A stretch of DNA of 64,000 nt, from the NCBI GenBank assembly GCA_001464795.1, contig LNEB01000015.1:1-64000 (forward strand), read 5' to 3'. This DNA comes from Bdellovibrionales bacterium Ga0074139 (GTDB lineage Bacteria; Bdellovibrionota; Bdellovibrionia; Bdellovibrionales; Bdellovibrionaceae). The notes under the pieces are model-generated. The model was not told where the DNA came from. It saw only the letters and a list, made by a program, of their open reading frames with translations, and did no database searches. The position numbers and the translations under genes were made by a program. Shown in pieces: positions 2,889-21,613 of the stretch. Position 1 is the first letter of the stretch, and the number at the start of each line of letters is the position of its first letter.

Positions 2889-2890
2889 TT

Positions 2891-3124: not shown

Positions 3125-3126
3125 GT

Positions 3127-5591: not shown

Positions 5592-7291
5592 CAACAAGAC
5601 GATTACTCTTTATTCTACTAGCTTCCGCGACAACTGCTTTTCTGATGCAATGGAACTCAGTTAAAGCACAGTATTTAAAAATGAATCAGTTGACCGCTAT
5701 AGCATGCGATATGGTCTCAGCTCGAGCGCAAGCTGGCTCTACTCGCGATGTTCATGATCAGCTTTATTCGTTCTGGCATAAGCACAGCCCAACAATACAT
5801 GTGGATGTTATCGTAAAGCGTGGTGATAAAGAGATCGGGTCCAATAATTCGTTAAATCACAAAAATACTTATATCCAAACTTGCCAGATTGAAAATAGAC
5901 CAGACTATGAAATTACATTCCAGTTTGCAGATACAAAAATTTTAAGTCTTTCATTGATCGAAAAGTTTGCAGCAATATTTATCACTATTCTGATATCTTC
6001 ATTTCTAATGCAAAGCTTACTCAGCAGGATTCGTGATCTTTGGTCAGGTCAGGTTTTGCGTGAAATTCGCTCAAGCCTGGGGCTTGAAGTTGATTCAGAA
6101 AAAAAGAACAATGTACTTTCGCGGTTTCTTGCTAAAACATTCTTAAACTCCGCATCTAGCCTGAAGCCTTCAATTGAAAAATTACAAGTTTCATTAAAAG
6201 AAAAACAATCAGAACTTACAGAAACAAAAGACTTAGTTTCAAATCTTGAAGAAGTACGCTCTCGAGCTAATCAGTTCGCCGATATAGTAACAATGGTCCG
6301 TCATGATCTAAAAGGGCCACTCTCTGCTCTCAAAATCACAGCAAGTGGGATTACGGAATTGCCAGATGAATCGGCCTCCTTACGTCAAACAATCAATTCT
6401 ATTGAACAAATTATCAGCGATCTAGATCAAAAAGAAGAAATCGCAAACACGACTAGAGAAGAAATACTGACCCTTGAAATTGCTGAAGTTGCCATTCAAG
6501 AAGTTGTTGATGAAAAATCCAGAACTCTAGCAAACCATAACGGCATTCAGATTGATTTCGAATATAACCCTAACAGCTTAAACCCTGTTAAATGCGTGCC
6601 AAATCATTTGCGCAGAATGATTGCAAATTTGTTACAGAATGCCATTGAGGCTAGTCCCAAGTCTTCTCTCATACATGTAGGGGCTCGTCATAGTCAGGGA
6701 TTCGTAATGATCGAAATTGCGGATCAAGGGACTGGTATTGCTCCTGAAGTCCTTCCAAAACTCTTTAAACGAGGTGCCACGTTCGGAAAAACTCATGGGA
6801 CTGGTGAGGGGTTAGCTTTTGTAAAAGCAAGAGCTGAAAGCTTTGGCGGAGACGTTAAAGTCGTAGAATCCACCGCTAAGGGCACTGTCTTTCAATTAAA
6901 ACTACCAACGGCCACAACGGAGGCCCGTTTCATGGGTAGCCCTACGGAAGCAGATTGTAACAAAATAGCGGTTCTAGATGATGAAATTGAACTTCAAAAA
7001 GTTAAATGGTCTCAAACTGTTGGTCTTAAGAAGTATTTCAATTCCCATCTAGAGTTTCTCAGCTGGGCTGATAACGAACCAGAGTTTAGCAGTTTTTCAT
7101 GCTTAGTAGATCTTCACTTAAAAAACTCCGTTACAGGACTAGATGTGATAAGAACGCTTAAAAAGCATGACCGAATATATTTAGCTACCTCGGATTATTT
7201 GAACCCAGAGGCTCTGGAGGTCTCAAAATCCAATGGAGTCGTTATTATTCCCAAGCCTTTACTTATGGCTCTAAAGTTCACTTCAGATTGA
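5588..7291 (+). CDS. hybrid sensor histidine kinase with C-terminal receiver
   Basis: Two membrane helices (about 5-22 and 129-148) bracket a periplasmic sensor of about 100 residues. Then come a coiled coil (about 195-230), a HisKA box with H239 in VRHDLKGPL, and HATPase motifs NLLQNAIEAS, DQGTGI and GTGEGLAF (E where GLGL is usual). A complete receiver follows (about 460-565: DDE, LVDLHL, LATSDY, IPKPL). The start overlaps the YcaO stop (ATGA at 5588). It is the natural phosphodonor for the sigma-54 regulator at 1470. The sensor may read the solute-binding protein encoded upstream (inference). The receiver could buffer or gate the phosphoryl flow. Confidence 0.92.
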   Translation: MTTRRLLFILLASATTAFLMQWNSVKAQYLKMNQLTAIACDMVSARAQAGSTRDVHDQLYSFWHKHSPTIHVDVIVKRGDKEIGSNNSLNHKNTYIQTCQIENRPDYEITFQFADTKILSLSLIEKFAAIFITILISSFLMQSLLSRIRDLWSGQVLREIRSSLGLEVDSEKKNNVLSRFLAKTFLNSASSLKPSIEKLQVSLKEKQSELTETKDLVSNLEEVRSRANQFADIVTMVRHDLKGPLSALKITASGITELPDESASLRQTINSIEQIISDLDQKEEIANTTREEILTLEIAEVAIQEVVDEKSRTLANHNGIQIDFEYNPNSLNPVKCVPNHLRRMIANLLQNAIEASPKSSLIHVGARHSQGFVMIEIADQGTGIAPEVLPKLFKRGATFGKTHGTGEGLAFVKARAESFGGDVKVVESTAKGTVFQLKLPTATTEARFMGSPTEADCNKIAVLDDEIELQKVKWSQTVGLKKYFNSHLEFLSWADNEPEFSSFSCLVDLHLKNSVTGLDVIRTLKKHDRIYLATSDYLNPEALEVSKSNGVVIIPKPLLMALKFTSD

Positions 7292-7356: not shown

Positions 7357-8133
7357 ATGAATTTACCCGACGAAATCAGAAATCTCGTTAATTTAGATTC
7401 CCTCAACGAGGTTCATATAGGCGAATCAAAATCTCGAGTGTTTCGGATTCTTGGAAAAACAGGCGAACTCTATTACTTAAAGATTACACATTCAGCTTAT
7501 GTGAAGTGTGAAATTGAACGTGAAGCGGAAATTTTACATTGGCTCGCTGGCCGAAGCGTGTCCGTACCTTCAAAAGTTGCCTTGGTCTATGATGATACTC
7601 AAACTTATTCTTTGCAAACGGCGATATCTGGCGTTCCCTTATCCGATGCAACTGTCGGCCTAAAACCGGATGATTGTATGCGGCTTGGTGCCGAATTCCT
7701 CCGCACCCTTCACACATTGGATATTAGTTCTTGTCCTTTTAATCGCACTTTAGAAGTAACGCGAAAGTTAGCATCAATTAATTTAGAGAAAGGACTTGTT
7801 GATGAAAGTGACTTTGATTCAGTTAATCAAGGGAAGTCCGCTAAATTCCTTTTTAAAGAATTATCACAGGATATTAAAGAAGATCTTGTTTTCACACACG
7901 GAGACTACTGTTTTCCGAATATCATTTTTCAAGACGGCCGCATTACTGGATTAGTTGATTGGGGGCGCGCCGGCATAGCGGACCGTTATCAAGATATTGG
8001 ACTTTTTTTACGAAGCTTTAAATCAAATATTGCAGAACCTAATACCAAATTGTTCCTGGAATCATACGGCCTTGTTAAAGGTCTTGATTCCGACAAAGTC
8101 TTTTTTTACAGGAAACTTGACGAATTTTTTTAA
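7357..8133 (+). CDS. APH(3')-family aminoglycoside O-phosphotransferase homologue
   Basis: The family phosphorylates the 3'-hydroxyl of kanamycin/neomycin-type drugs. Visible hallmarks: K42 with E55/E57 in the N-lobe, catalytic loop HGDYCFPN (H181, D183, N188), metal ligand D201 in LVDWGRAG, and ADRYQDIGL. The middle matches APH(3')-II in style (LHTLDISSCPF, GLVDESDFD) and the C-terminus FYRKLDEFF is almost the same as in APH(3')-II. The 258-residue length is typical and all key residues are present, so it should be active. It has its own promoter and a strong terminator, so it is a separate cargo unit in the element. Substrate range cannot be read from sequence. Confidence 0.9.
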   Translation: MNLPDEIRNLVNLDSLNEVHIGESKSRVFRILGKTGELYYLKITHSAYVKCEIEREAEILHWLAGRSVSVPSKVALVYDDTQTYSLQTAISGVPLSDATVGLKPDDCMRLGAEFLRTLHTLDISSCPFNRTLEVTRKLASINLEKGLVDESDFDSVNQGKSAKFLFKELSQDIKEDLVFTHGDYCFPNIIFQDGRITGLVDWGRAGIADRYQDIGLFLRSFKSNIAEPNTKLFLESYGLVKGLDSDKVFFYRKLDEFF

Positions 8134-8161
8134 CGAATTAAATCCCTCCAAAAATGATAAT

Positions 8162-8199
8162 AAAAAAGCTCATTGATTAAAAAATCAGTGAGCTTTTTT
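8162..8199 (+). terminator. rho-independent terminator after the APH(3')-like gene
   Basis: A 15-bp stem (8162-8176 with 8185-8199, one G-U pair) ends in TTTTTT. It directly follows the phosphotransferase stop and isolates it from the transfer region. Confidence 0.85.
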
Positions 8200-8227
8200 A
8201 TTATCAAACTTCCTATTTCTAACTAAA

Positions 8228-8292
8228 TGACGTGTTCTCGTCGTCATCTGACGACTATCCGTCGTTTTCTATCTCATGACGGAAATCCGTCA
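8228..8292. repeat. cluster of TGACG/CGTCA half-sites and dyads (oriT or operator candidate)
   Basis: Within 65 bp there are TGACG at 8228, 8249 and 8277, and CGTCA at 8242 and 8288, plus degenerate CGTCG at 8239 and 8260. They form nested dyads: CGTCA-TC-TGACG (8242-8253) and TGACGGAAATCCGTCA (8277-8292, 7-bp arms). The cluster lies in the 288-bp gap before the transfer operon, where an origin of transfer or a multi-site operator is expected. The function is inferred. Confidence 0.55.
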
Positions 8293-8421: not shown

Positions 8422-8949
8422 ATGAACACAACAAAACCTTGGCTCGATCAAAATGGAAATCTTTTTCCTGACAGTAAAATCAAAACCATTTCAAAAAAAT
8501 GGTCAGCGGAAATCTGGGAAAAGTTTTTAGACTCTACAGTTGATACCAAATTACCAGAAGCCGAAGTCCTTACATCAAAATACGCTTCACTATGTGAAGA
8601 AGAAGTGGAGCCAACGTGGGGACCTCCTAGTTCTTTGAGTGAACCTATTCAAAAAGAAATTCACAGCGCCATCAACAAACTTAATACACGTGCTCAAAAA
8701 GTCTTACGTCTACACTTTTGGGAAAATAAATCACTCCGCGAAATAGCTGAAATCGAGAAATTATCCTTTGGTCGCATCCAGCAAATAAAAAAATATTCTC
8801 TGAATGAAATCAGGGACTTACTCGAAAATGCCCTACACACTTCCAGCTACCTTATAGGAGGGTGTGAAAATTCAGACCTTCCAATTAGCCGAGATGAAGA
8901 AATTAAAGAGATTTACCGCAAGGACCTGGAAGGGAGTTATCTCAAGTGA
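8422..8949 (+). CDS. sigma-70 region 4-like HTH regulator
   Basis: The 175-residue product carries a region-4-type HTH (about residues 88-138): LNTRAQKVLRLHFWENKSLR, IAEIEKLSFGRIQQIKKYSL, then NEIRDLL. This is the -35-binding half of sigma factors without a recognisable region 2, so it is more likely a DNA-binding regulator of transfer genes than a full sigma factor. GGAG at 8410-8413 precedes the start. It overlaps the next gene by 4 bp (GTGA), and that gene encodes a second protein of the same type, so they may form a heteromeric pair. Confidence 0.7.
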   Translation: MNTTKPWLDQNGNLFPDSKIKTISKKWSAEIWEKFLDSTVDTKLPEAEVLTSKYASLCEEEVEPTWGPPSSLSEPIQKEIHSAINKLNTRAQKVLRLHFWENKSLREIAEIEKLSFGRIQQIKKYSLNEIRDLLENALHTSSYLIGGCENSDLPISRDEEIKEIYRKDLEGSYLK

Positions 8950-9263
8950 TCTCATGGAAGGAAAAAATTAAAATGCGCGCCTTAAAAGAAGAAATTGTAA
9001 CGTCACCATCGAATCTTGCAATGCCAGTGGATTTTTATCACCAAGCTCTAGAGGCCAGTTTAAAAAATTTAAATGAGTTAGAGCGCAAAGCCATCTTTCT
9101 ACGTTTTTGGGAATGCCTACCCATTGCAAGAGTCGCAGATCTAATGGGGTTCACCTGGGAACACACAGACCGCGTGATTGATGAGGCTCTTACAAAGCTC
9201 AGAAATGAAATGTGCCGCTTACTCGAAAAAAGACAACAAAGGATTTCAATGTGCGACTACTAA
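8946..9263 (+). CDS. second sigma region 4-like HTH regulator
   Basis: This 105-residue protein is read from GTG 8946, overlapping its neighbour's stop. Residues 39-90 look like a region-4 HTH: LNELERKAIFLRFWECLPIA, RVADLMGFTWEHTDRVIDEA, then LTKLRNEM. It resembles the 8422 product in the L-x2-R-x2-x-FLRFWE pattern, suggesting an old tandem duplication with divergence. No region 2 is present. The role is probably regulation of the downstream transfer genes (inference from position). Confidence 0.65.
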   Translation: MISWKEKIKMRALKEEIVTSPSNLAMPVDFYHQALEASLKNLNELERKAIFLRFWECLPIARVADLMGFTWEHTDRVIDEALTKLRNEMCRLLEKRQQRISMCDY

Positions 9264-9811: not shown

Positions 9812-9844
9812 CATTTCTGATTACTTTAAAAGTTGGAGGTCTAT

Positions 9845-10129
9845 ATGCTTTCTAAAAAGAAAGTATTTCGTGCTTTTGTCTTAATTCTTATTTGTGCAAT
9901 GCCAATTATTGCCAGTGCTTCAGTTGAATCCTCGCTTATGACAATTCAAACAAAACTTGTCGGAACAATACTGCCACTCGTGGCGATTCTGGGATTTGTC
10001 TTTGCTGGATTCAGCTATCTAACTGGAAATGCCAACGCTCGAAACCATTTAATTTTAGCTATTGTGGGGGCCCTTGTCGGCTTTGGAGCAAGCTCAATAG
10101 TTTCTTTCTTGCGTGGGCTCATTCAGTAA
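9845..10129 (+). CDS. VirB2/TrbC-like conjugative pilin
   Basis: ATG 9845 follows GGAGG at 9834-9838; the upstream TTG 9833 lies in that site and is rejected. The 94-residue product has a signal sequence (about 1-25, ending ASAS), then two membrane helices (LVGTILPLVAILGFVFAGFS and LILAIVGALVGFGASSIVSF) split by a short polar loop NANAR. This is the standard pilin layout. It is the first gene of the mating-apparatus operon and is followed 11 bp later by a VirB3-like gene. It should form the pilus subunit in the inner membrane before assembly. Confidence 0.8.
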   Translation: MLSKKKVFRAFVLILICAMPIIASASVESSLMTIQTKLVGTILPLVAILGFVFAGFSYLTGNANARNHLILAIVGALVGFGASSIVSFLRGLIQ

Positions 10130-10140
10130 AGGGAGGATTT

Positions 10141-10488
10141 TTGCTTGAACAATCACAGGTTTATAAATGCCTCGAAAAAAAGACGCTTATTCTTGGCTTT
10201 GAATTACCAGATCTTTTTACATTAAGTCTGCTTCTCTGTGTTCTTAATTTTATCTTTGCAACTGCTGAACTTAAATTTTTCTTCACCTTTGGACCCACTG
10301 CTCTTTTGGGACTGTTGTTGCGATTAATGAAAACAGGAAAAGCAGAAAACTACCTTTTACACTGGGTCCGCTATCACATTAGCCCAGGAATTTTCAAAGC
10401 CTTTCCGTTAGCCGAAAAAAATGAATTTCTAAAAATTAAAAATAAAGGAGTCCCTCGTGCTAGATTCCGCTTTGAGCCGGAAACTTGA
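10141..10488 (+). CDS. VirB3/TraL-like inner-membrane transfer protein
   Basis: TTG 10141 has GGGAGG just upstream. The 115-residue protein has a short cytoplasmic head (VYKCLEKKTLILGFELPDLF), two close hydrophobic segments (about 27-43 and 47-62), and a longer basic tail ending in ARFRFEPET. This is the size and shape of VirB3/TraL. It overlaps the VirB4-like gene by 32 bp, matching the usual B3-B4 pairing. Sequence identity to known members cannot be judged by eye, so the call rests on topology and order. Confidence 0.7.
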   Translation: MLEQSQVYKCLEKKTLILGFELPDLFTLSLLLCVLNFIFATAELKFFFTFGPTALLGLLLRLMKTGKAENYLLHWVRYHISPGIFKAFPLAEKNEFLKIKNKGVPRARFRFEPET

Positions 10489-12868
10489 TCTATGGGGTTT
10501 TGAAGCCGGCGTTATGGTCTTTCGCAACCAAACGCTTGGAACAGTTCTCAAACTTTCACCACTAGATATTGAGGTTTCTACGGACGATCAAATAAATTTG
10601 ATCAAATCAAACATTAAGAGTTTTCTGAACGGACTTCCTCCTGGACTCACCTTCCAAATCGTACAAGAAGTTGTTTCAGGAAACGAAGCCATTATCCAGG
10701 CGCATGAAAACACCCTTGCCCCAGACAGCGACGCTTTAACGGTGGAGCTGACTTCAGAACGTGTAAAAAAACTTCGAGAGCTGGATAAGGACGGCCTTCT
10801 CCCCAAAAGTAATTTGTATCTACTCCTAAGAAAACCCATGATCACAAATCGTGAACGCAAAGGCTTTGGTGGACTTATTAAAGGCCCCTCTTCTTTAACC
10901 GAAAAGGTTTTAGAACAAGAGATTTCTTTATTTGAGCGCATGGCTTTAAATATCGAGCAAGGCCTCTCCAATCTGGGACTTACAGCCAAAAGGCTTTCAG
11001 ACGAAGAAGTTTTAAAGATTGCCTATAATCAATGGAACCCCGATAGAGCTATTGGGGTACAAATGAACTCATCTCAAGATGTACGAGATGAAATTATTCT
11101 CACTGATTGCGTTGTGGGGTTAGACCATTTTGTCTTAGGCAAGTTTTATCACAAAGTTATTTCTCTCAAGATGTTACCTGAAACCAGTTTCTCGGCAATG
11201 GCCTCTATGCTTTCAGACCTGCCGTTCGACTCGAGGCTTTATCTAACTGCTGAAGTTTTAGATCAGGAGAAAGAAAGGGCGAGCCTTCAAACCCAGCGCC
11301 GACTTGCCTATGCTTCAACTGTCGGCAAAAAAGGTGTCTCCGATTTAGAGTCACAGGCAAAACTCCAAGATATTGAAGCCTTACTTGAACAGATGATTCA
11401 AGGCTCAGAGCGCGTTTTCCGATTCTCCATGCAAATTCTTTTGCGCTCAAAATCTGAAGACAATCTAGAAATGCAAGTCTCTGACACTCTCGCACTTTTA
11501 CGAACGCTTTCAGGGGCCGAGGGAATGGTTGAAACAGTTGCGGCCTTTGATATTTTTACTGAGTTTGCGATCCCTCAAGTAAAAATAAAAGAACGTAGTA
11601 TTAAAATAAATACCTCTGTCCTTGCTGACTTCTTGCCTATTTACGGAAGCTGGACTGGTCATGAGGTTCCGCAAGTTCTTTTGCGCAATCGTGCTGACGG
11701 TATAGTAGGTTTTGATGTCTTCTCCCAGAGCTTAGGGAATTCCAATCAGCTAATTTCCGGGGGTAGTGGCATAGGTAAGTCATTCTTAACGAATGTGCTT
11801 CTTGCTCAAAATCTTAAGATGAAACCAAAAATTTTTATCTTGGATATCGGAGGATCTTACAAAAGATTGTGCGAAACTTTGGGTGGCCAGTATATCCGAC
11901 TCGGCATTAATTCAGGACTTTCTATTAATCCTTTAGACACTGACGGGATGGATACAAATGATCATGAAGCTTTAGATCAAAAAATCAAACTTGTGTCCTC
12001 CTTAGTTGAAATTATGTCTAAGGAAAATGATAAATCTTTAGGGCGACTGGAAAAAGCTGAGATTGAAAAGTCTGTGCAAAATCTGATAAAGAACGGATCT
12101 CAAAGTCACCTATCAGATCTGCGTGAAGTATTAATCAACCACAGTGAGCCAGAAATTCGCCGGGTCGGTAAAATCTTATCTTTATGGTGTGGAGATTCAC
12201 CTTTTGGTAAATTCATTGACCGAGATTCTACGGTGTCGCTTAAAGCCGATGTGGTGTGTTTTGATTTAAAAGATTTGGAAAACTATCCAGACTTGCAATC
12301 AGTTTGTTTATTCTTGATCACGGATTTGATTTGGCGAGAAGTTCAAAAAGACAGAACTACCTTTAAGTTCGTGATTTTTGATGAATGTTGGAAATTACTT
12401 GAGAGCGAAGAAGGTGCAGCTTTCATTGGTCCTGTATTTCGAACATTCAGAAAATATCGAGCAAGTGCTGTCGCCATTTCACAAACAATTTCTGACTTTG
12501 CCGATTCAAAGATTGCCTCGGCTGTCATGCCTAATAGCTCTATTAAGTGGATCTTACGTCAAAAAGGATCAGATCCAGCCTCTCTACAAAAAGCCTTGCA
12601 GCTTAATGAAAGAGAAATGGATCTTGTTGCAAGTTTAACTGCTGAGAAAGGTGTCTACTCGGAAAGCTTTCTTATGGCTGAAAATCAAAAAGTTGTCGTG
12701 AGAATTGAATCAACACCACTTGAATACTGGCTAGCTACAACAGATCCCAGCGATTTGGTTTTAATTAATAAGTTAAAAGCCGAAATGCCAGAAGCTGATG
12801 ATCTTTCAATTATGAAAACTTTAAGTAAATCTCATCCACATGGGGCTTTGTGGAAGAAAGGAGCCTAG
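10457..12868 (+). CDS. VirB4/TraC-type conjugation ATPase
   Basis: This is the energising AAA+ ATPase of the type IV secretion apparatus. The 803-residue protein has an N-terminal VirB4 domain and a C-terminal P-loop domain with Walker A GGSGIGKS (about 434-442), followed by IFILDIGGSYKRLCETLGGQ and Walker B FVIFDECWKLL (about 637-647). A late segment (AVAISQTISDFADS) is typical of the TraC/VirB4 arginine region. GTG 10457 lies after AAAGGAG. It ends directly at the next start. It is the only ATPase of the mating-pair apparatus here, as no VirB11 is present. Confidence 0.95.
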   Translation: MLDSALSRKLDLWGFEAGVMVFRNQTLGTVLKLSPLDIEVSTDDQINLIKSNIKSFLNGLPPGLTFQIVQEVVSGNEAIIQAHENTLAPDSDALTVELTSERVKKLRELDKDGLLPKSNLYLLLRKPMITNRERKGFGGLIKGPSSLTEKVLEQEISLFERMALNIEQGLSNLGLTAKRLSDEEVLKIAYNQWNPDRAIGVQMNSSQDVRDEIILTDCVVGLDHFVLGKFYHKVISLKMLPETSFSAMASMLSDLPFDSRLYLTAEVLDQEKERASLQTQRRLAYASTVGKKGVSDLESQAKLQDIEALLEQMIQGSERVFRFSMQILLRSKSEDNLEMQVSDTLALLRTLSGAEGMVETVAAFDIFTEFAIPQVKIKERSIKINTSVLADFLPIYGSWTGHEVPQVLLRNRADGIVGFDVFSQSLGNSNQLISGGSGIGKSFLTNVLLAQNLKMKPKIFILDIGGSYKRLCETLGGQYIRLGINSGLSINPLDTDGMDTNDHEALDQKIKLVSSLVEIMSKENDKSLGRLEKAEIEKSVQNLIKNGSQSHLSDLREVLINHSEPEIRRVGKILSLWCGDSPFGKFIDRDSTVSLKADVVCFDLKDLENYPDLQSVCLFLITDLIWREVQKDRTTFKFVIFDECWKLLESEEGAAFIGPVFRTFRKYRASAVAISQTISDFADSKIASAVMPNSSIKWILRQKGSDPASLQKALQLNEREMDLVASLTAEKGVYSESFLMAENQKVVVRIESTPLEYWLATTDPSDLVLINKLKAEMPEADDLSIMKTLSKSHPHGALWKKGA

Positions 12869-13564
12869 TTGAGTCGTATCAAAAAATTAACTTTTTCAGT
12901 ATTAGCTATGCTTTCATTCTCAGTCCCAAAGCTTGCACGTGCAGATTTATTTGGCGGTGATGTCGTGGTACTCACACAGATTCTAGCAAACGCTATTAAG
13001 CAATTAATAGAAATGCAAAGAATTGTTCAGAGCGGCCAAGACACCCTAGGACTACTAAAAGACATCAATCGTGGAATCAACGACTCCTTAAAGGTTGTTG
13101 ATTCTATTGGCCCTTATATTGATCCAGGTCTTTACCATGATTTAAAGCGCACAGCTCAAATCGTCGGACACCTACAAAGTGTCTACGGAATTGTGACAAA
13201 TTCACCAAATGAAAAAGTTCAACTAGAAACGGACTCTGTAGTAGCTGAAAGTTTGAATTTGAATAATCAGCTTTATAACTACTCACAGGAACTCGATAAA
13301 CTCGCTGAAACGATTAAGTCCTACTCCCACGATGTCTCACCTGGTGGAGCTGCTAAACTAACGGCTCAATCACTCGGTGTTATGGTCCATGTCATGAGTC
13401 GGCAAATACAAGCACAGGGACAAGCCATGAAAATCCAGGCTCAAACCCTAGCTGTACAAAATAAAAAGGAGAAAGACGACACTCGTGCTTACCTAGATCA
13501 ATCAGGAGCTTTAAAAGCTGCCATGAAAAACAAAAATATCAATTTTGAATTCCCGAGGTTTTAA
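12869..13564 (+). CDS. VirB5/TrbJ-like secreted transfer protein
   Basis: A clear signal peptide (about 1-25, ending ARA) precedes a 206-residue helical body. The layout resembles VirB5/TrbJ: an N-terminal motif with QILANAIKQLIEMQRIVQS, a middle with YGIV, and a Gln-rich helix near the end (MSRQIQAQGQAMKIQAQT). TTG 12869 begins right after the VirB4-like stop, with GGAG at 12860-12863. This family makes minor pilus-tip or adhesin components in the periplasm. Position between the B4 and B6 genes supports the call. Confidence 0.7.
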   Translation: MSRIKKLTFSVLAMLSFSVPKLARADLFGGDVVVLTQILANAIKQLIEMQRIVQSGQDTLGLLKDINRGINDSLKVVDSIGPYIDPGLYHDLKRTAQIVGHLQSVYGIVTNSPNEKVQLETDSVVAESLNLNNQLYNYSQELDKLAETIKSYSHDVSPGGAAKLTAQSLGVMVHVMSRQIQAQGQAMKIQAQTLAVQNKKEKDDTRAYLDQSGALKAAMKNKNINFEFPRF

Positions 13565-13566
13565 AT

Positions 13567-14454
13567 ATGGATATGAACTGGCTTGCCACTGAAGCAAAAA
13601 CACTTCACGCGATCTTTTCAAATATGTTTTTTGTTTTAGTCACAACATTTTTGATCATTGGCATTGTGCTAGAGTTTTTTAAAATGTCGCTAGGTAATAC
13701 GCCGCAATTTCCGCAGCTGGTTGCAAGAGTGTTTATTGCATCCATGCTTCTAGTTGCAATTCCTGAAATTATGAACACTCTTGCCCTGATTACAGACGCT
13801 ATAACTAAAGAAATTGGACAGTTTCTAGAATTTAAACATTTACTTGAAAGATTAAGTGAAAAATTCGGTGAAATGAGCTGGAGCTGGGTTTCTATCAAAG
13901 ATAGTGTCATGATTTTGATCTCGTACTTAAGCTTTTTCTTTTTCTACATTAGCGTTTACCTAGCAGATGCATTTTTTCTTTATTCGTGGATGTTGATTTA
14001 TGTTTTTAGCCCTTTACTGATAGCATTCTACGTTTTTCCAATAACAGCGAGTGCTACTTCAATGCTTTTTAAAAGTATTATAGAAGTTTGCGCCTGGAAA
14101 ATTGTCTGGTGTGTAATGTCGGCTCTCTTATGGAGTATGGCCCTTTCAGATATTAACAAGACAGAACATGGAATCGACTTTTTGACTGTCATTATTTTAA
14201 ACCTGATGTTGGCTTTTTCAATTCTAATGACACCAAGAATTACTGCAAGCTTCTTAAATGGAGGTGTTTCTTCAGTTGCAGGAGAAGTCGGCAATAAAGC
14301 TTTTTCTCGAGTTGTAGCGGCTCCTGCCACAGCTCTTATAAAAAGCAAGCTAATGACTGAAAGCTTAAGGAAAGCCCTAGACTCAAAACAGCAGAGACGG
14401 CCAAAAGGGAAAACATCACCGGAAGGCTCCCGTTCTATGGACGGATATCACTAG
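13567..14454 (+). CDS. VirB6/TrbL-like polytopic membrane protein
   Basis: The 295-residue product has about six hydrophobic segments (roughly 18-38, 52-72, 112-136, 139-158, 168-190, 205-225), then a basic cytoplasmic tail with KQQRRPKGK. VirB6-type proteins form part of the DNA path across the inner membrane. It starts 2 bp after the VirB5-like gene. The C-terminal GGVSSVAGEVGNKA resembles the glycine-rich end of the TrbL family. Confidence 0.75.
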   Translation: MDMNWLATEAKTLHAIFSNMFFVLVTTFLIIGIVLEFFKMSLGNTPQFPQLVARVFIASMLLVAIPEIMNTLALITDAITKEIGQFLEFKHLLERLSEKFGEMSWSWVSIKDSVMILISYLSFFFFYISVYLADAFFLYSWMLIYVFSPLLIAFYVFPITASATSMLFKSIIEVCAWKIVWCVMSALLWSMALSDINKTEHGIDFLTVIILNLMLAFSILMTPRITASFLNGGVSSVAGEVGNKAFSRVVAAPATALIKSKLMTESLRKALDSKQQRRPKGKTSPEGSRSMDGYH

Positions 14455-14488
14455 CTTTTATTTTAACCACTTTAAAAAGGAGTTCGCC

Positions 14489-15043
14489 ATGAGATTTCAT
14501 GTCGCACTTGATTCTCTAGAAAAAGAGAATCAAGTTTTACGTTTTTCCGTTATTGGTCTTTTAGTCCTATCTGTAGTTCTTTGCTCTGGCATTCTGTATG
14601 CCTCAATGAAAGATCCACTTATAATCGAGAGAGCCTGTTTTTCTAGATCCCTTACGCTCGCTAATGCTGCACCAACAAAAGAAGAAATAGCAGGATTCCT
14701 TGAGATGGCTCTTAGGGAGAGATTTAACTCTGACTCAGAAGAATCTAGGTTATTAACTTCTGATCAACTAACGGCAAGAACTCGTGAGCAAACAGAACTT
14801 TCAAAGCAAAAACTCGTTCAGAAAATATTTTTGAATCAAGTTGATCTTACAGAAGAAGGAGTTCTGAATGTTGATGCTGATCGTTTTATTTCCACAGGAG
14901 ACGTACGAACTGTTTTACGCTTTCCACTTAAAGTTGAAATTGCAAAGATCACACGTACAGATTCCAATCCTTATGGTCTTTTACTCACGGATGTTCAGCC
15001 CTTAATTAGCAATGAAAAAATAAAAGATAAGGAGAATAAATGA
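14489..15043 (+). CDS. VirB8/TraE-like transfer protein
   Basis: A cytoplasmic N-terminus (about 1-20) with LEKENQVLRF is followed by one transmembrane helix (about 22-40) and a periplasmic domain of about 140 residues, as in VirB8/TraE. AAAGGAG precedes ATG 14489. Its stop overlaps the next start (ATGA). The 184-residue length matches TraE (about 190). It is expected to act as an inner-membrane scaffold between B6 and B9/B10. Confidence 0.7.
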   Translation: MRFHVALDSLEKENQVLRFSVIGLLVLSVVLCSGILYASMKDPLIIERACFSRSLTLANAAPTKEEIAGFLEMALRERFNSDSEESRLLTSDQLTARTREQTELSKQKLVQKIFLNQVDLTEEGVLNVDADRFISTGDVRTVLRFPLKVEIAKITRTDSNPYGLLLTDVQPLISNEKIKDKENK

Positions 15044-15525
15044 GTAATAAAAATGTAATTTTACTTTTTTATGTTCATGTCTTAGCCGTGGTTCTTTGCT
15101 TTTTATTCTTTTCAGGAAAAGCTGAAGCTAAAAAGAAACTTGAAACAATAAAGCCATCTTTTGTGAAAGTTCCTACCTCTGAAGACAAAAAGATTCTTCT
15201 TATGAAGCCGCGCAAGGATGAAAAAACAATTCTCTGCACAGACGAGAAGGTACAAAGAGTCCGAGTTACTTTTGGGCGAATTACGACTCTAAATTTTCCA
15301 GTGGCACCAAAGGAAGTATTACCAGGAGAGGCTGTTTTTGATTTCAAGAAAATTCGAAATGATTTGAATATTAAATCCTTAAGTCCACGGGCTAGGACAA
15401 ACATCGTCGTCTATTTACAAGAAAGACGATGCAACCTTGACCTTACAACAGTACCGAGTGGTGGCGACGACATCATTTTTGTCCGAGACCCGGCAGAAAA
15501 ACAGTTTGAAGTGAGGTTTCAGTGA
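15040..15525 (+). CDS. short VirB9/TraK-like periplasmic protein
   Basis: A signal peptide (about 1-30, ending KAEA) leads to a beta-rich domain: KTILCTDEKVQRVRVTFGRI, TTLNFPVAPKEVLPGE, then NIVVYLQERRCNLDLTT. TraK/VirB9 N-terminal domains begin in this way. At 161 residues it lacks the usual second domain that binds the B7 lipoprotein, so it is short for VirB9. It sits between B8-like and B10-like genes with overlaps at both ends (ATGA and GTGA). Confidence 0.65.
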   Translation: MSNKNVILLFYVHVLAVVLCFLFFSGKAEAKKKLETIKPSFVKVPTSEDKKILLMKPRKDEKTILCTDEKVQRVRVTFGRITTLNFPVAPKEVLPGEAVFDFKKIRNDLNIKSLSPRARTNIVVYLQERRCNLDLTTVPSGGDDIIFVRDPAEKQFEVRFQ

Positions 15526-16433
15526 ATAATGACTTTGAACAAGATAGCGCTGAATGGGTAAGCTCGCACTCATGGAGGACAAAGTTTTATGGCCTCATCC
15601 ACGAAGGCCATAAACAGCGAGTTTCCCCTCTCGCACTGAAGGTATTCGTATGCTGTTTAGCTACAATAGCAGCAGCTCTGCAAATATTCTCTGGAGTAAA
15701 TGATTCTGCGACAAAAATGTCTATTTCAATTGAAGGACCAAGAATAAGTTTCGGCGGCCCTGATGCCAACTTGAAAATTCCTGCCTTTGATCCAAAGAAA
15801 CAACAGAATCAAATTAACGAGCAGCAGAGACTCTTGAACAGACAATCCTCTCCTGCGATTAAAAGACTTCAGGCCATCAAACTTTCCTCAATGCGAGGCG
15901 TGCCAACTGGCACTGAAGCTCTGGCCATTTTATCAAGCGGTGGAACTAATGGCACTGTCGTTGCTAGACTTAAAGACTCCGTTATTGTGGATAGTGAGGT
16001 TGTTCTTCCAGCTAGAACCGTTTTATTTGGCCAAGGTACTTCCAGTGACGAAAGACTTTTTATTCGCTTTAAAAAGGCAATCTTGCCAGATAAGTCAGAG
16101 CAGGAAATTCAGGCACAAGTTTTTGATAGTAAAGATCGCATGGTGGGACTTAAAGGGAAGAAAGTCTCCGACATGGCTTTTAAGATCGCAACAAGCTCAG
16201 GTTTAATTTTTTTAGGCGGCCTCGCTGATGGCCTTAAATCAAATAACTCAGTTAATATCTTTGGACCTCAAGCAAAACCCAGTGTGCGTGACGCCGCTTT
16301 AAATGGCGTTGGAGTTGCAACATCAGAGCAAGGCAAGCAAATGCTTGAATCCATGAGAAATGAACAAGCACGAATCGAAGTAAAAGCAGAAACCCCCGTC
16401 ATTGTCATTTTTGGAAATGATACAAATGATTAG
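15522..16433 (+). CDS. VirB10/TraB/TrbI-like transfer protein
   Basis: A cytoplasmic head (about 1-40) and one membrane helix (about 41-60) precede a proline-poor linker and a TrbI-like C-terminal beta-barrel domain: RGVPTGTEALAILSSGGTNG, then GTVVARLKDSVIVDSEVVLP, then FGQGTSSDERLFIRF. This part matches the VirB10 family. GTG 15522 overlaps the previous stop. VirB10 links the inner and outer membranes and senses ATPase activity. The linker is short compared with many VirB10 proteins. Confidence 0.8.
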   Translation: MNNDFEQDSAEWVSSHSWRTKFYGLIHEGHKQRVSPLALKVFVCCLATIAAALQIFSGVNDSATKMSISIEGPRISFGGPDANLKIPAFDPKKQQNQINEQQRLLNRQSSPAIKRLQAIKLSSMRGVPTGTEALAILSSGGTNGTVVARLKDSVIVDSEVVLPARTVLFGQGTSSDERLFIRFKKAILPDKSEQEIQAQVFDSKDRMVGLKGKKVSDMAFKIATSSGLIFLGGLADGLKSNNSVNIFGPQAKPSVRDAALNGVGVATSEQGKQMLESMRNEQARIEVKAETPVIVIFGNDTND

Positions 16434-16444
16434 GAGAGTTTTAA

Positions 16445-17911
16445 TTGGAAAAAAAGAAAGTCAATTTAGCTCAAGATATTCAGGATTTAATCCTGCCATT
16501 GAAAATTTTTGTCTTCGATCCTTTCATAGAAGTGTTTCGAGGCTTGAGGGAAAAGTCCATACCGCTTATTGAGCTTGTGTTCCTAGGATGCATGCTAAGT
16601 TTTTTGCAGTATTTTGAAGTCTTCAGTCATTTTATTAAAAAATACGGAGGACAACTTCCACAATCTCAGAATCTAGCAATGTTTTTTGGTCTATGGCTTT
16701 TGATCTCTGGTCTTCATTTGTGGGGACTGAAGCAGGTTTTTATAAGAAAAAATCTTCAAAAGAAATTAGACCGTGTTTTCTTGCAAGCAGGTCTAAAAAC
16801 AAAGCTAGAAGAGTTCCCAGTTTTTGTATTTGACCATCCCGTAGGCTCTACCAGTCGAAAGCTGCGCCTTAGGTCCTTTGGGATTCCATCTTCAAAGTTT
16901 CGTGAAGGTAAAGACTATCTGGAGGCTGGTCTTAATGTTTCTTTGTCTAAAATTGAAAATCCAAAAGGCAATTTTGAGTTTGTCGATTTAATGTATTCTC
17001 TTGAACGAATGCCTGAGGGCTGGACGCTTGATGATCTTTGGAAATATAAAGATTTTTCTTTCCCTATAGGTAAGTCTCTTGATGGTGAGATAAAAGCCTC
17101 TTTAAAGAAAATCCCACACTATCTTGTGGCTGGTGAAACTGGATCAGGAAAATCGACATTTATCAGATCCATGATTTCAATTTTAACTTTGAACAATCCG
17201 CATTTACGCGTTCTTTTTATCGATATGAAAGGTGGAATGGAAAACCAAGTTTTCCAAGGATTTGATCGCATTGAGCTTTTAAGCGAAATCCCACAAGTAG
17301 ATGATCGACTTTCGGAAATCACCACAGAGCTTGAAACTCGTATGTCTTTGGCTGCAAAAGGAAGATTCAAAAATATTGATGAGTACAATCAAAAACAAAG
17401 CAGCTCAAAAGATAAATGGGAAAGAATTCTTATTGTGGTTGATGAGGCTGCGGAAATTGTACCTTCAGTTTCAAACCCAGATAAAAGTCGTCTTGCAAAA
17501 ATACAATCACGGATTAACCGCTTCACTCGCCTAGGTCGTGCTGTTGGCATTCACATTGTGATAGGTGTTCAAAAACCAGATCATAAAAACCTTGATCCCA
17601 CGATTAAAGCCAATTTGCCAGGAATTGTTTGCTTTCCAGTCAGTCACTTTAGTCAAAGTGTTGTTGTTCTTGGAAACGCCCATGCTTCAGACTTGAACGC
17701 TGAATTTCCAGGACGCGGCATTTGGAAACACGGATCTTACGAGGTTGAAATCCAAGCGCCGTTTTTGTCTCAAGAAGATTTGGACAAAGCCAATAAAAGA
17801 AAGAACACCTATTTTCAATCAAGTGATCTGACAAAAAAAGGAGCAATACTTGAAAATGAAAAGAAAGCCTTCACACCGAGTACTTACGAGCCTCGACGTG
17901 AAAATTCTTAA
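16445..17911 (+). CDS. FtsK/SpoIIIE-type conjugative coupling protein
   Basis: Two membrane helices (about 42-62 and 78-97) anchor a cytoplasmic ATPase: Walker A AGETGSGKST (about 228-237), VLFIDMKGG, Walker B ILIVVDEAAE (about 328-337), and RLGRAVGIHIVIGVQKPDHK. These are FtsK/HerA-type features, unlike the VirD4/TraG type. In conjugation such proteins bring DNA to the mating channel. TTG 16445 follows GGAG; the stop overlaps the next gene by 62 bp. The 488-residue length lacks the FtsK gamma domain. It is followed by a Replic_Relax-like protein, the usual partner for this class. Confidence 0.88.
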   Translation: MEKKKVNLAQDIQDLILPLKIFVFDPFIEVFRGLREKSIPLIELVFLGCMLSFLQYFEVFSHFIKKYGGQLPQSQNLAMFFGLWLLISGLHLWGLKQVFIRKNLQKKLDRVFLQAGLKTKLEEFPVFVFDHPVGSTSRKLRLRSFGIPSSKFREGKDYLEAGLNVSLSKIENPKGNFEFVDLMYSLERMPEGWTLDDLWKYKDFSFPIGKSLDGEIKASLKKIPHYLVAGETGSGKSTFIRSMISILTLNNPHLRVLFIDMKGGMENQVFQGFDRIELLSEIPQVDDRLSEITTELETRMSLAAKGRFKNIDEYNQKQSSSKDKWERILIVVDEAAEIVPSVSNPDKSRLAKIQSRINRFTRLGRAVGIHIVIGVQKPDHKNLDPTIKANLPGIVCFPVSHFSQSVVVLGNAHASDLNAEFPGRGIWKHGSYEVEIQAPFLSQEDLDKANKRKNTYFQSSDLTKKGAILENEKKAFTPSTYEPRRENS

Positions 17912-18776
17912 ATTTCTTTGGAAGTGGAAACTTTCTAATATAATGGTTTTAAAGTACGCCTTAGCTCCCAACAGAAGCTTTTGGAAGTTTTATCAAATCA
18001 TACGACGTCTCTACAATGATAACTATATCAAAGAAGTCTCAAGCTCAGAAAGTACTATATCGTTTTGGACGCTTACTAGAAAGGGGTTTCAATACTTAAA
18101 TGATGGCTCTTTAGGGTTAACACAAGCACGTTATCAACCTCAGGCGTTGTTTCATGATTACTGGGCTTTAGTTTTTCAATTTGGTGACTTTATATTTGGA
18201 ATCCCTTCTTCGGTTGAGATAGTTTCAGAACAAGAATTCACAGCCAGAGAAATTTCTGATCTTCCGGATTGGGTTCCGAAAACTAAAACGCATATTCCTG
18301 ATGGGCTCACAAAAATTAAAAAAGGCAATTCACTTGAGGTCGTGGCTTTTGAAATTGAGCTTTCAGCCAAATCTGATTCACGATACGAAGAAATGATTCA
18401 CTACTTAGACCAAACCGAGGAAATCAACTGGGTCTTGTGGCTCTGTGAAAATGAAAGTATTATTAAAAAAATAACCAGACAGATTACAGCAGTTCGACGT
18501 TTGCGCCCTATGATGCATCATTTTATTTTAAAAGAAGATGTACAAAAATATGGATGGTCAGCGCCATTTCTATGGGGAGAACTGACCGGAAAAACTGTTT
18601 GCGATTTGTTAGGTCAAGGGCTTAGTCAAGAAGCCGTCAAGACCACGTTAGAAAGCCACCAATTTCAATCAATGGCTATTTATCTGGAAAGCAAGAAAAG
18701 TCCCCATAAACCCAACTACTTAGGAACCTCACTTGACCCCCTAAATCTCCTGACACCTAAAGGTCCAGGAACATAA
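17850..18776 (+). CDS. Replic_Relax-like protein (winged HTH plus PD-(D/E)xK-like domain)
   Basis: Residues about 10-85 form a winged helix (TSLDVKILKFLWKWK, then FYQIIRRLYNDNYIKEV, then FWTLTRKGFQYL). A later block has IPDG (D151), VAFEIELSAKS (E168, E170, K174) and RYEEMIHYLD, a spacing like PD-(D/E)xK nucleases and like replication-relaxation proteins that follow FtsK-type coupling genes. TTG 17850 has GGAG at ideal distance. With no HUH relaxase in the window, it is the best candidate for the DNA-processing protein of this element. Catalysis is not shown. Confidence 0.65.
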   Translation: MKMKRKPSHRVLTSLDVKILKFLWKWKLSNIMVLKYALAPNRSFWKFYQIIRRLYNDNYIKEVSSSESTISFWTLTRKGFQYLNDGSLGLTQARYQPQALFHDYWALVFQFGDFIFGIPSSVEIVSEQEFTAREISDLPDWVPKTKTHIPDGLTKIKKGNSLEVVAFEIELSAKSDSRYEEMIHYLDQTEEINWVLWLCENESIIKKITRQITAVRRLRPMMHHFILKEDVQKYGWSAPFLWGELTGKTVCDLLGQGLSQEAVKTTLESHQFQSMAIYLESKKSPHKPNYLGTSLDPLNLLTPKGPGT

Positions 18777-18807: not shown

Positions 18808-19029
18808 ATGCTTCGCTTATTTATTACACTTCTATTTCTGCTGATGATTGCTTCCTGCACATCAAAACCCAAGATGGTAACAGTAGATAATAAAACCGAT
18901 GCTCCCAAGCTCACACGACCAGTTGTGAGAAAAATCTGGGTGCCACCCACCATCGAGGACGGCGGCAAGGTGTACCGCGACGGTCATTATAAATATTTAC
19001 TTGAAAATGAATCCGTCTGGAGTCGGTAA
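18808..19029 (+). CDS. small lipoprotein at the end of the transfer operon
   Basis: The 73-residue product has a lipoprotein signal with lipobox LMIASC (Cys about 17) and a 57-residue mature part containing KIWVPPTIEDGGKVYRDG and an aromatic end. Its place after the transfer genes suggests a VirB7/TraV-like outer-membrane partner of the short VirB9-like protein, but the sequence alone does not prove this. TAGGAGA precedes ATG 18808, and a strong terminator follows. Confidence 0.7.
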   Translation: MLRLFITLLFLLMIASCTSKPKMVTVDNKTDAPKLTRPVVRKIWVPPTIEDGGKVYRDGHYKYLLENESVWSR

Positions 19030-19063: not shown

Positions 19064-19088
19064 AAACCCCTCACTTCTTGAGGGGTTT
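19064..19088 (+). terminator. terminator of the transfer operon
   Basis: Ten-bp arms (19064-19073 and 19079-19088, AAACCCCTCA with its complement) enclose CTTCT, followed by a T-rich tail. Confidence 0.8.
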
Positions 19089-19107
19089 TCTTTTATGGAG
19101 ATTTAAT

Positions 19108-19566
19108 ATGGAAAATGAAAATGGTACCAAACCAAGTAAAGAGAAAGACCCCTCAACTGTTGACCGCGTGATTTTAGGAAAACCTGAGGCTCACCTTTTG
19201 CAAAGTTGGGTTGATGAGTTCAATCAAAAAGCGGACGGACTTGTTAAGATATCTAAGGCTGACTTAGTAAACTGTCTGATTGCTAGCCATGCTGTTAGTC
19301 TTAGCAGCGAAGAAGTACACTCAATTGCAACACGCTATTACGATGAGGCTCGCTGGCTCGGATGGGCTATGCATAAACTTAAAGAAGCTAAGAAAAAAGG
19401 AAATCAGATGAGCTTTGATGAACTGACAGTCTTCAGAAACTCATTGTTGACTGTGAATAAACAGCCCTCGAAAAAAAGAACCCGAAATGCGCATGAACAA
19501 GAAACCAAACCACCAAACACTACTACAGACCAATCAGTAGCTAAAAAAATTAAGCCAACGATCTAA
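19108..19566 (+). CDS. hypothetical 152-aa element protein
   Basis: No family is recognised. ATG 19108 has TGGAG upstream; an earlier TTG at 19078 lies in the terminator and is rejected. The protein is helical and charged (VDRVILGKPEAHLLQSWVDE, then ISKADLVNCLIASHAVSLSS), with a basic, disordered tail (KKRTRNAHEQETKPP). The arrangement resembles small relaxosome accessory proteins of the MobC kind, but I cannot confirm it. It is upstream of the recombinase gene. Confidence 0.55.
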   Translation: MENENGTKPSKEKDPSTVDRVILGKPEAHLLQSWVDEFNQKADGLVKISKADLVNCLIASHAVSLSSEEVHSIATRYYDEARWLGWAMHKLKEAKKKGNQMSFDELTVFRNSLLTVNKQPSKKRTRNAHEQETKPPNTTTDQSVAKKIKPTI

Positions 19567-19612: not shown

Positions 19613-19816
19613 ATGGGAAAATCCAAATGGCAGCCTCACCTAGTAAACCCTAGAAAAACAAAAGTTAGTGATGAACACTTTGAGCAATTACTTGCTGAAG
19701 TAGGAGAAGTTTTATATAAAAGACTCTGCCAGCAAGTCCAAGCTAAAGAAAATTCCACTGAATCCGCTTTAAATGAATTGGGAAAAATTCAATTTAAAAA
19801 GGCGGTGTCGAAATGA
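19613..19816 (+). CDS. 67-aa protein coupled to the recombinase gene
   Basis: A small basic protein with a central helix (VSDEHFEQLLAEVGEVLYKR). It starts after GGGAG and its stop overlaps the recombinase start (ATGA at 19813-19816), so the two are translationally coupled. Such genes next to serine recombinases are often directionality factors or small accessory factors. There is no sequence proof for that here. Confidence 0.55.
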   Translation: MGKSKWQPHLVNPRKTKVSDEHFEQLLAEVGEVLYKRLCQQVQAKENSTESALNELGKIQFKKAVSK

Positions 19817-21594
19817 AAACTGTTAAAAAATCTAAAAGTAGCTACAAAATTGGTCTCTATATCCGTGTCTCAACGGAAGAACAGGCCGGAAATCCCGAAG
19901 GATCGATCAAATCTCAAGAGTGCCGATTAAGAGAGTTTGTAAAACACAAAAACTCTTTTGAAAACTTTGGTGAAATTATCGAACTGTATTGTGATGCAGG
20001 GATTTCGGCTAAAGACACCAATCGACCACAGTTCCAACGCATGCTTGAAGATATTCGAAATGATAAGATCGATATGATTTTAATAACAGAGCTTTCAAGA
20101 CTCACACGCTCAATTAAAGATTTTGCGGTCTTAGTTGAAATGCTTGAAGACATGGATTGTAAGATCCACTCTTTAAAAGACAACTTTGATACATCAACAG
20201 CCGTTGGGTCTTTTTCCATGTACCTGGTCGCAAACTTAGCTCAGTTTGAACGCAAACAAATCGGTGAAAGAATTTCAGCGAATTTTTTAAGTCGCGCCAA
20301 GCGTGGTCTTTATAATGGTGGCAGTGTGCCGCTAGGATATCGCGTAGGCGATAAAAAAGATGGTAGACTAGAGGTCGTTCCAACAGAAGCTGAGACCGTA
20401 CGGGATATATTTAAAACCTTTCTAGCAGAAGGCACATTGTCAGCAGCTGCAAAGGCTTTAAATACCAGAGAAGTTCAATTAATCAGAAAAAGAGAGGGTG
20501 GCGGTAAGACTCGCGTGGGTCACGTCATGCTTGAGTCTCTGTACCGAATGCTTACAAATAAAATCTATATAGGAGTACGTGAATACTCTGAGAATGGAAA
20601 AACCAGTGAGACCAAGGCTCAATGGGAGCCCATTATTAATGAAGAAGTTTTTAAGCGCGTAGGTGAGATCTTAAAATCAAACAAGTCTCGTAAAAAGTCT
20701 TCTCCTATAAGGTATCCTTACCTGCTGTCAGGCCTTTTACATTGCCAATGTGGTCATCGACTCTCGGGTAAGTCTGCTCATGGAAATGGAGGCAAGATCG
20801 CCTACTATGATCATGTATGGGCTGCAAAGCTTGAATGTGTGAGCGACAAAAAAAGTACTCGATGTAACCCACAACGGTTTTTAGCAGATAAGCTTGAGCC
20901 CCTTGTCTGGAAGGCAGTGAAAGACTTTTTACTGGTGCCAGGTTTTTTTACGGAAATTCTTTTAGAAGCTAAAAATCTTTCTGAAAATAACACACCTAAA
21001 AAGGAGGTCGAAAGAAAACTCAACAGGGTCTACGAAATTAATATGCAGCTAGAGTCCTTAAGTGAAAGACTCGGACTTTTGCCAAAGTCCGTAGATCCTA
21101 AGCCAGTATTTGATCAGATGGAAAAGCTTTCATTACAAAAGCAATCCCTAGAAGATGAGATCAAACAACTTAAGACATCACTTAAATTGAATACCTCAGT
21201 CGTTGAGGTTAACGATTTTTCAATCTTTCGTTCAGTGATCGAAGAAATGCTGACTAATGAAAATGATCCTCAAATTAAAACCGCCATCATCCAAAAGGTG
21301 GTGGATAAGATCATTATCAATGGCGAAGAGGTTGAGGTGTATTTCCTTGTTGGAGAAAGCCACTATAAGCGAGAGCTTGCCCTTACAACGGGCTCTCGCT
21401 CCCAATTAGACTCGCTCGTGCCAGAAAAAAAATACACGTCTCCACTGCCTGTTTTTCACAGGAACTTGGAGACTTCTCAAATTTTACATTTAAGACCGAA
21501 CTTTGTTTATGACGCTGGTTCGAACAGCTTGATAAATGGTAGGGAGCGAGGGACTCGAACCCCCGATCCGCCGGTTATGAGCCGGCTGCTTTAA
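19813..21594 (+). CDS. large serine recombinase/integrase of the element
   Basis: The N-terminal resolvase domain (about 12-155) has catalytic Ser20 in YIRVST, SIKSQECRL, and ITELSRLTR. A recombinase domain follows (LGYRVGDKK onward), then a zinc-ribbon-like CQCG...CVSDKKSTRC and a coiled coil (about 395-460). The 593-residue length is typical. The reading frame continues to 21594, where its last 18 or so codons are the antisense of a tRNA gene. The candidate att core (21514-21524) starts exactly on a codon boundary at residue 568. After circularisation the same frame would end at 470-472 with a different tail of similar length. Confidence 0.95.
   Translation: MKTVKKSKSSYKIGLYIRVSTEEQAGNPEGSIKSQECRLREFVKHKNSFENFGEIIELYCDAGISAKDTNRPQFQRMLEDIRNDKIDMILITELSRLTRSIKDFAVLVEMLEDMDCKIHSLKDNFDTSTAVGSFSMYLVANLAQFERKQIGERISANFLSRAKRGLYNGGSVPLGYRVGDKKDGRLEVVPTEAETVRDIFKTFLAEGTLSAAAKALNTREVQLIRKREGGGKTRVGHVMLESLYRMLTNKIYIGVREYSENGKTSETKAQWEPIINEEVFKRVGEILKSNKSRKKSSPIRYPYLLSGLLHCQCGHRLSGKSAHGNGGKIAYYDHVWAAKLECVSDKKSTRCNPQRFLADKLEPLVWKAVKDFLLVPGFFTEILLEAKNLSENNTPKKEVERKLNRVYEINMQLESLSERLGLLPKSVDPKPVFDQMEKLSLQKQSLEDEIKQLKTSLKLNTSVVEVNDFSIFRSVIEEMLTNENDPQIKTAIIQKVVDKIIINGEEVEVYFLVGESHYKRELALTTGSRSQLDSLVPEKKYTSPLPVFHRNLETSQILHLRPNFVYDAGSNSLINGRERGTRTPDPPVMSRLL
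21514..21524 (+). repeat. candidate right attachment core (direct repeat with 410-420)
   Basis: GCTGGTTCGAA lies within the 3' end of the recombinase gene, 12 bp short of the tRNA CCA end. It is identical to 410-420. Together with the next bases it forms the near-palindrome GCTGGTTCGAACAGC, as serine-integrase sites often do. The role is inferred. Confidence 0.45.
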
Positions 21595-21613
21595 CCAACT
21601 AAGCTAGCTCCCC
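21537..21613 (-). tRNA. tRNA with CAT anticodon (Met, or Ile2 if lysidine-modified)
   Basis: On the minus strand the sequence folds as a full cloverleaf: acceptor GGGGAGC/GCTCCCT, anticodon stem GCCGG/CCGGC with loop CTCATAA, T arm GGGGG-TTCGAGT-CCCTC, discriminator A and an encoded CCA. The pair 1-72 is G-U, which excludes the initiator type. It begins 11 bp after the rpoD stop, so it is probably processed from the rpoD transcript. The recombinase frame covers its antisense. CAT could also be the Ile2 species. Confidence 0.92.

Follow-up and report, generated by a model that had tools for sequence, protein, structure and literature searches.

How a DNA-transfer operon could work when it appears to have neither a VirB11 ATPase nor a relaxase is the question raised by positions 9833–18776 of the window, by which we mean the whole 64,000-nt stretch analyzed here, from contig LNEB01000015.1 of Bdellovibrionales bacterium Ga0074139. 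Ten uninterrupted open reading frames lie there on the forward strand, several of them overlapping, with a VirB2 pilin gene first and an FtsK-like ATPase gene and gene 17850 (named for its start) last. Our comparisons indicate that this is very likely a TcpA–MOBC conjugative element, which combines a VirB2-B3-B4-(B5)-B6-B8-B9NTD-B10 channel without VirB11 with a TcpA-family ATPase, a MOBC-type relaxase and a serine integrase. Integrase, relaxase, coupling protein and VirB4 occur together, and the element is probably an integrative and conjugative element (ICE). The genes of its transfer module, all on the forward strand, are as follows.

9833–10129, forward: VirB2/TrbC pilin (PF04956, 1.5e-8, 35 bits, above cut-off); the first gene in relatives too.
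10141–10488, forward: VirB3/TraL-like protein (TIGR02762, 2e-5, below cut-off; syntenic).
10457–12868, forward: VirB4 ATPase, TraC-F-like (TIGR02746, 2.4e-80, below that model's equivalog cut-off; PF19044, 4.4e-40; VirB4 tree).
12869–13564, forward: VirB5-position protein, so named from gene order alone; the best conserved marker of the family.
13567–14454, forward: VirB6-like polytopic membrane protein (weak match to NF045890, conjugation membrane protein; syntenic).
14489–15043, forward: VirB8-like protein (TIGR03746, 8e-4, weak; syntenic).
15040–15525, forward: short VirB9, N-terminal domain only (fold match and alignment to full-length VirB9).
15522–16433, forward: VirB10/TrbI (PF03743, 3e-15, 57 bits, above cut-off).
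16445–17911, forward: TcpA-type coupling ATPase, 488 aa (PF01580, 66 bits; no VirD4 family).
17850–18776, forward: predicted MOBC-type PD-(D/E)XK relaxase (D151, E168, E170, K174, R178, Y179).
18808–19029, forward: small lipoprotein, VirB7 candidate (lipobox Cys invariant in a 12-row alignment; follows MobC in relatives).
19078–19566, forward: conserved gene closing the transfer module (in the same place in most class I elements; neither Pfam nor PHROGs give a match).

Is a relaxase truly missing, as the preliminary description of this DNA held? Gene 17850 matches the NCBIfam MobC model NF041423 with an E-value of 6.6e-11 and 41.9 bits; the curated cut-off of 200 bits was set for one subfamily and not for the whole class. 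As the alignment of its 33-protein family shows, the motif HxPDG…ExExxxKxxxxY is common to the members, and in the catalytic columns D…ExE…K the Asp is kept in 32/33, the first Glu in 33/33, the second Glu in 32/33 and the Lys in 30/33. The spacings presumably also agree with the positions that were mutated in TraX of pAD1. An identical motif is carried by MobC of pESA2, a Cronobacter (Enterobacteriaceae) plasmid whose entry MOB-suite types as MOBC/MPF_T (MPF, mating-pair formation). The structure model of gene 17850 (pLDDT 87) combines a winged helix with a mixed nuclease domain, and the top Foldseek matches are FokI, PaqCI, BsaWI and BamHI together with MarR-type winged-helix regulators, all at E-values of 2e-3 or worse. 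The restriction-endonuclease fold of the MOBC class is thus seen in the predicted structure, with modest E-values. On the basis of the sequence and the model, gene 17850 is a predicted MOBC-like relaxase with an intact PD-(D/E)XK motif.

MOBC relaxases are restriction-endonuclease-like, have no detected covalent intermediate, and occur in Gram-negative as well as Gram-positive hosts (PMC12857230); PF13814/Replic_Relax is the MobC class of CONJscan (PMC5357655). Since MOBC is a recognized MOB class without HUH, the relaxase is, by this prediction, not missing, and the claim that no MOB-type relaxase is present has to be given up. The absence of an HUH relaxase from the element stands: no MOBP, MOBF or MOBQ proteins were found in this genome, and MOBP occurs in one of eight carrier genomes (G036), on contigs other than the element's. 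A single HUH-like regular-expression match was discarded as spurious. With the MOBC relaxases TraX of pAD1, MobC of CloDF13 and MobC of pESA2, gene 17850 has in common the PD-(D/E)XK-type site, the winged helix plus nuclease fold, a coupling-protein neighbor and the lack of HUH, but the closest plasmid MobC is only 22% identical (E 0.6).

The MOBC elements that have been described with a coupling protein use one of the VirD4 type, whereas the pump here is of another kind. PF01580 is the sole translocase family above cut-off in the 488-aa ATPase, besides the general HerA/DUF87 motor, and the VirD4-type TrwB model gives 12 bits. In a single-sequence search of solved structures, TcpA of pCW3 (6o1x), compared through its solved-structure sequence, is matched at 1.8e-35 (126 bits) versus 1.1e-16 (64 bits) for FtsK. 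A 14-sequence profile raises these values to 210 bits for TcpA and 121 for FtsK, with EssC-type proteins at 103–115; no VirD4-type entry is among its solved-structure matches at E<=0.001, and pCW3 TcpA is the only solved coupling protein matched. Firmicutes TcpAs score 209–216 bits, and three of them align almost from end to end, N-terminal region included, while VirD4 proteins score nothing. Firmicutes TcpA loci are also the top scorers outside the phylum, where FtsK/EssC-type proteins reach up to 168 bits; the best are pCbo51 (TcpD/TcpE, typed MOBM) and a Clostridiaceae locus in which a tyrosine-recombinase-like gene directly precedes the TcpA gene and a VirB4 gene follows it. Scanning genome contigs with the coupling-protein alignment returned mostly EssC/FtsK-type proteins, plus two Bdellovibrionota integrative and mobilizable elements (IMEs) and two Firmicutes TcpA loci. 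Finally, in a tree with some long branches, built on an alignment made with the Bdellovibrionota profile, the Bdellovibrionota coupling proteins cluster with TcpA and apart from FtsK/EssC-type proteins. The single PF01580 motor is thus nearer to FtsK than to VirD4, and nearest to TcpA among FtsK-like proteins. Judged by sequence, the coupling protein is a TcpA-family ATPase.

In the review literature, TcpA is confined to some of the MPF_FA systems of Firmicutes, and every Gram-negative system is assigned to the VirD4 family (PMC12857230); a survey of streptococcal mobilizable elements found no TcpA with MobC (PMC5357655). We found no report of TcpA in Bdellovibrionota in the open-access literature. 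Like TcpA of pCW3 and of the Tn916/ICEBs1-type systems (MPF_FA), the protein is an FtsK-related ATPase with one PF01580 domain and a matching N-terminal region; unlike those, reported as Firmicutes-restricted and accompanied by MOBT or MOBM, it sits with a diderm-type VirB9/VirB10 channel and MOBC. FtsK-type proteins paired with Replic_Relax proteins had been described as known mostly from Gram-positive elements and as unusual in a Gram-negative setting. Pairs of FtsK and replication-relaxation proteins do occur on Firmicutes plasmids, and an FtsK/TcpA-type pump does lie beside a VirB-like channel here, but MOBC itself is also found in Gram-negatives (PMC12857230; pESA2). The unusual features, then, are that the coupling protein belongs to the TcpA family, that it is paired with MOBC and a diderm channel, and that VirB9 is truncated; none of these was singled out in the preliminary description.

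The genome and its relatives repeat this arrangement. The module order B2-B3-B4-B5-B6-B8-B9-B10-coupling protein-MobC-lipoprotein recurs across the order and the phylum, and three divergent copies are present in the same genome (in the window and on contigs C12 and C2). Because the order is repeated in relatives, the weakly matched genes are best seen as parts of one conserved machine. With a profile of the VirB5-position protein, the system is detected in 116 of the 369 Bdellovibrionota genomes, spread over 74 of 182 genera. Class I, to which the window belongs, combines a short VirB9 with TcpA. Class II has a full-length VirB9 and, in the same slot between VirB10 and MobC, a VirD4-type protein (PF12696, PF02534, SXT_TraD-like), and class III has a full-length VirB9 with TcpA. 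In a VirB4 tree of 32 loci, class II forms one clade (100/100) between TcpA clades; deeper support is weak (83/89), and the TcpA carrier L203 is a long-branch outlier. This placement of class II amid TcpA clades requires at least one exchange of coupling proteins within one family. The MOBC-like motif is found in all classes, with SDG for PDG or a replaced Lys in some class III proteins.

Compact elements of TcpA, MobC and a serine integrase without VirB genes are found in genome G097 (two loci) and in a Halobacteriovoraceae metagenome-assembled genome (L051/L067, L052, L068), and L055 has MobC and the integrase alone. These VirB-less elements are likely mobilized by ICEs. A coupling role for TcpA is supported by the VirD4-type protein that fills the same VirB10–MobC slot in the sister clade and by the compact elements that TcpA, MobC and the serine integrase form. 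The gene order of L067, L068 and L052 resembles that of streptococcal IME class 8 (VirD4-MobC-serine integrase, PMC5357655), but the pump of the latter is VirD4 and that of the Bdellovibrionota elements is TcpA. Open-access literature on Bdellovibrio conjugative elements or coupling proteins yielded only inferred ICE-like islands, located at tRNAs (PMC3539863), and this family of self-transferring elements has apparently not been described before.

These results bear on the strongest alternative, in which the FtsK-like protein moves double-stranded DNA in the manner of Streptomyces TraB, the nuclease serves in regulation or as a restriction-like protein, and neither a relaxase nor a single-stranded intermediate is involved. 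The motor is FtsK/EssC-like, and TcpA itself has been reported as closer to FtsK than to TrwB, with a double-stranded substrate suggested (PMC12857230). However, its best match is TcpA, with TraB at only 25 bits, the pump has as neighbors a VirB channel and a protein with a conserved MOBC active site, and the sister clade has VirD4 in the same slot beside a homologous MobC. We consider this alternative improbable.

The short VirB9 invites a different view, that of a decayed or domesticated type IV secretion system which delivers proteins, for instance into prey, and does not serve conjugation. The best fold matches of the class I protein model (pLDDT 84) include the N-terminal domain of R388 TrwF/VirB9 (7o3t, E 2e-7), CagX, Dot/Icm chains and the F core complex, and the protein aligns to residues 6–123 of the 250-aa class II VirB9 (L198:10453-11205). 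Fold and alignment thus identify it as a VirB9 N-terminal domain, so that the outer-layer domain is absent in class I. Class II systems keep this C-terminal domain, as do most of class III. The truncation, along with a predatory host phylum, speaks for protein delivery, but the reading frames are intact, a relaxase motif is present and an integrase lies at a tRNA gene; the three divergent copies in one genome, the patchy distribution, and the TcpA–MobC pair common to the derived mobilizable elements also argue against it. We give this view very little weight.

The absence of VirB11 is less exotic than it looks, because F-type and Gram-positive systems also lack this ATPase. None of the nine T2SSE matches in the genome falls within the element. 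Eight exceed the cut-off, namely GspE, PilB, PilT, four TadA-like proteins and a short protein resembling GspE/PilB, and all eight stay below the VirB11 cut-off. With a home-made T2SSE profile, VirB11 is absent from 437 kb of element neighborhoods, which give only weak cross-matches, almost all to VirB4/TcpA motors, and another 20 loci gave no match at E<=1e-8. The preliminary description was therefore right on VirB11, and also on VirB1, as contig positions 1–22 kb hold no VirB1-type SLT domain. That a chromosomal TadA-like ATPase is borrowed in trans, as the scores of the four TadA-like proteins with the VirB11 model (164–233 bits, under the cut-off) might suggest, is hardly credible given that VirB11 is absent at every family locus examined across the phylum and that F-type and Gram-positive systems function without it.

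The channel lacks VirB11 and VirB1, which mark MPF_T. With F-type systems (MPF_F) the operon has in common a TraC-like VirB4, a TraL-like VirB3 and the lack of VirB11, but family scans of the ten operon proteins and the following genes found no F-specific genes (TraF/H/N/U/W, TrbC), MOBC and TcpA replace TraI (MOBF) and TraD, and VirB9 is truncated. The closest plasmid VirB4 (24–25%) belongs to the Myxococcus plasmid systems (pYRE and the MxC21-1 plasmid), which also have weak VirB5, VirB6 and VirB10 homologues; pYRE, unlike the element, has a TraM-recognition (VirD4-type) coupling protein, and MobC was not detected in the Myxococcus plasmid stretches examined. Profile support from Pfam and NCBIfam is good for the pilin, VirB4, VirB10 and the FtsK motor and weak for VirB3, VirB6, VirB8 and VirB9. 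A genome search with PF03135 (CagE/VirB4 N-domain) gave no match because the VirB4 here is TraC-like, and the PHROG search contributed FtsK-like proteins only. The VirB5-position protein has no match in Pfam, NCBIfam or the PDB, and its family has a mean column identity of 55%; the VirB6-like protein scores 28 bits against its Myxococcus plasmid counterpart, and the VirB8-like protein had no match in a PDB profile search. With profiles, fold and synteny combined, the gene list given earlier holds for the pilin, VirB3, VirB4, VirB6, VirB8, short VirB9, VirB10 and the FtsK-type ATPase, and VirB5 remains a name taken from gene order.

The ends of the element and the genes upstream of the operon involve these features.

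1470–7291, forward: signal cassette of a sigma54 response regulator, peptide-type solute-binding protein, YcaO-like protein and histidine kinase (Pfam).
8155–8291, forward: candidate origin of transfer (oriT) or operator, with a hairpin at 8155–8206 and three 14-nt GACG-N6-CGTC dyads at 8229, 8250 and 8278.
8422–9263, forward: two adjacent sigma-70 region-4-only genes upstream of the operon (PF04545; conserved in L043, L044, L046).
19813–21594, forward: large serine integrase (PF00239, PF07508, PF13408), running into tRNA-Met.
21537–21613, reverse: tRNA-Met, integration target and right element end (ARAGORN, Rfam).

In the relative G003, the corresponding integrase-gene end of ~95 bp adjoins two different tRNA genes (L162 ~2240 and L161 ~96; contigs C16 and C18), so the integrase family uses tRNA 3' ends; the double junction suggests two copies or relaxed tRNA targeting. 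Upstream of the operon, the three GACG-N6-CGTC dyads are the only occurrences in 64 kb, where 0.18 are expected, and relatives have analogous upstream triples, e.g., GTGCG-N4-CGCAC with spacing 52–55/29, or other half-sites. Together with the hairpin upstream of the sigma-like genes, they form a candidate oriT or operator. The sigma-70 region-4 pair may encode element-specific transcription factors. The signal cassette recurs, whole or in part, beside the conjugation module in L042, L044, L046, L050, L053 and L196, and looks like a signal-sensing switch for transfer, perhaps peptide-based. A kinase of the aminoglycoside-phosphotransferase family (PF01636) at 7357–8133 is possible cargo.

Several points weigh against the assignment as a TcpA–MOBC conjugative element. 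The MobC score lies below the curated NCBIfam cut-off, and the protein is without any Pfam match. The VirB5, VirB6 and VirB8 labels depend mostly on gene order. The lack of the outer-layer domain in class I VirB9 makes it hard to see how the outer membrane would be crossed. The window starts at the contig start; the element extends past it to a left end that was not found, nor was the second copy of the tRNA end (att), so the missing side might still hold a further gene. The direct repeats of the first 22 kb are short and look like chance matches, and the genus relative G034 gave no left end, as its tRNA-Met also has an insertion and the flank is without counterpart at the contig ends of this genome. 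In the sequence searched, no VirB11 or classical HUH relaxase turned up elsewhere in the element.

If the TcpA–MOBC assignment is correct, the serine integrase would excise the element, and MobC would bind oriT by its winged helix and nick it by its nuclease domain, like the MOBC relaxase TraX of pAD1, for which no covalent intermediate was detected. A TcpA hexamer may then dock the relaxosome on VirB4 and pump the DNA, with pilus and channel both powered by VirB4 alone, as F-type systems do it. Either one strand or two could pass, because TcpA resembles the double-strand translocase FtsK. We put forward only tentatively, as possible but short of an even chance, that these elements form a distinct VirB11-less diderm class, in which an FtsK/TcpA pump feeds MOBC-processed, possibly double-stranded DNA into a channel with half a VirB9, and TcpA and VirD4 are swapped in the same slot.

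Coupling proteins decide what enters the channel, and VirD4 and TcpA have been described as divided by envelope type and relaxase type. That either pump occupies one slot while relaxase and channel stay the same amounts to a natural experiment on pump recognition and on single- versus double-strand transport by TcpA. For the predatory bacteria, the family offers a concrete, phylum-wide vehicle of gene exchange.

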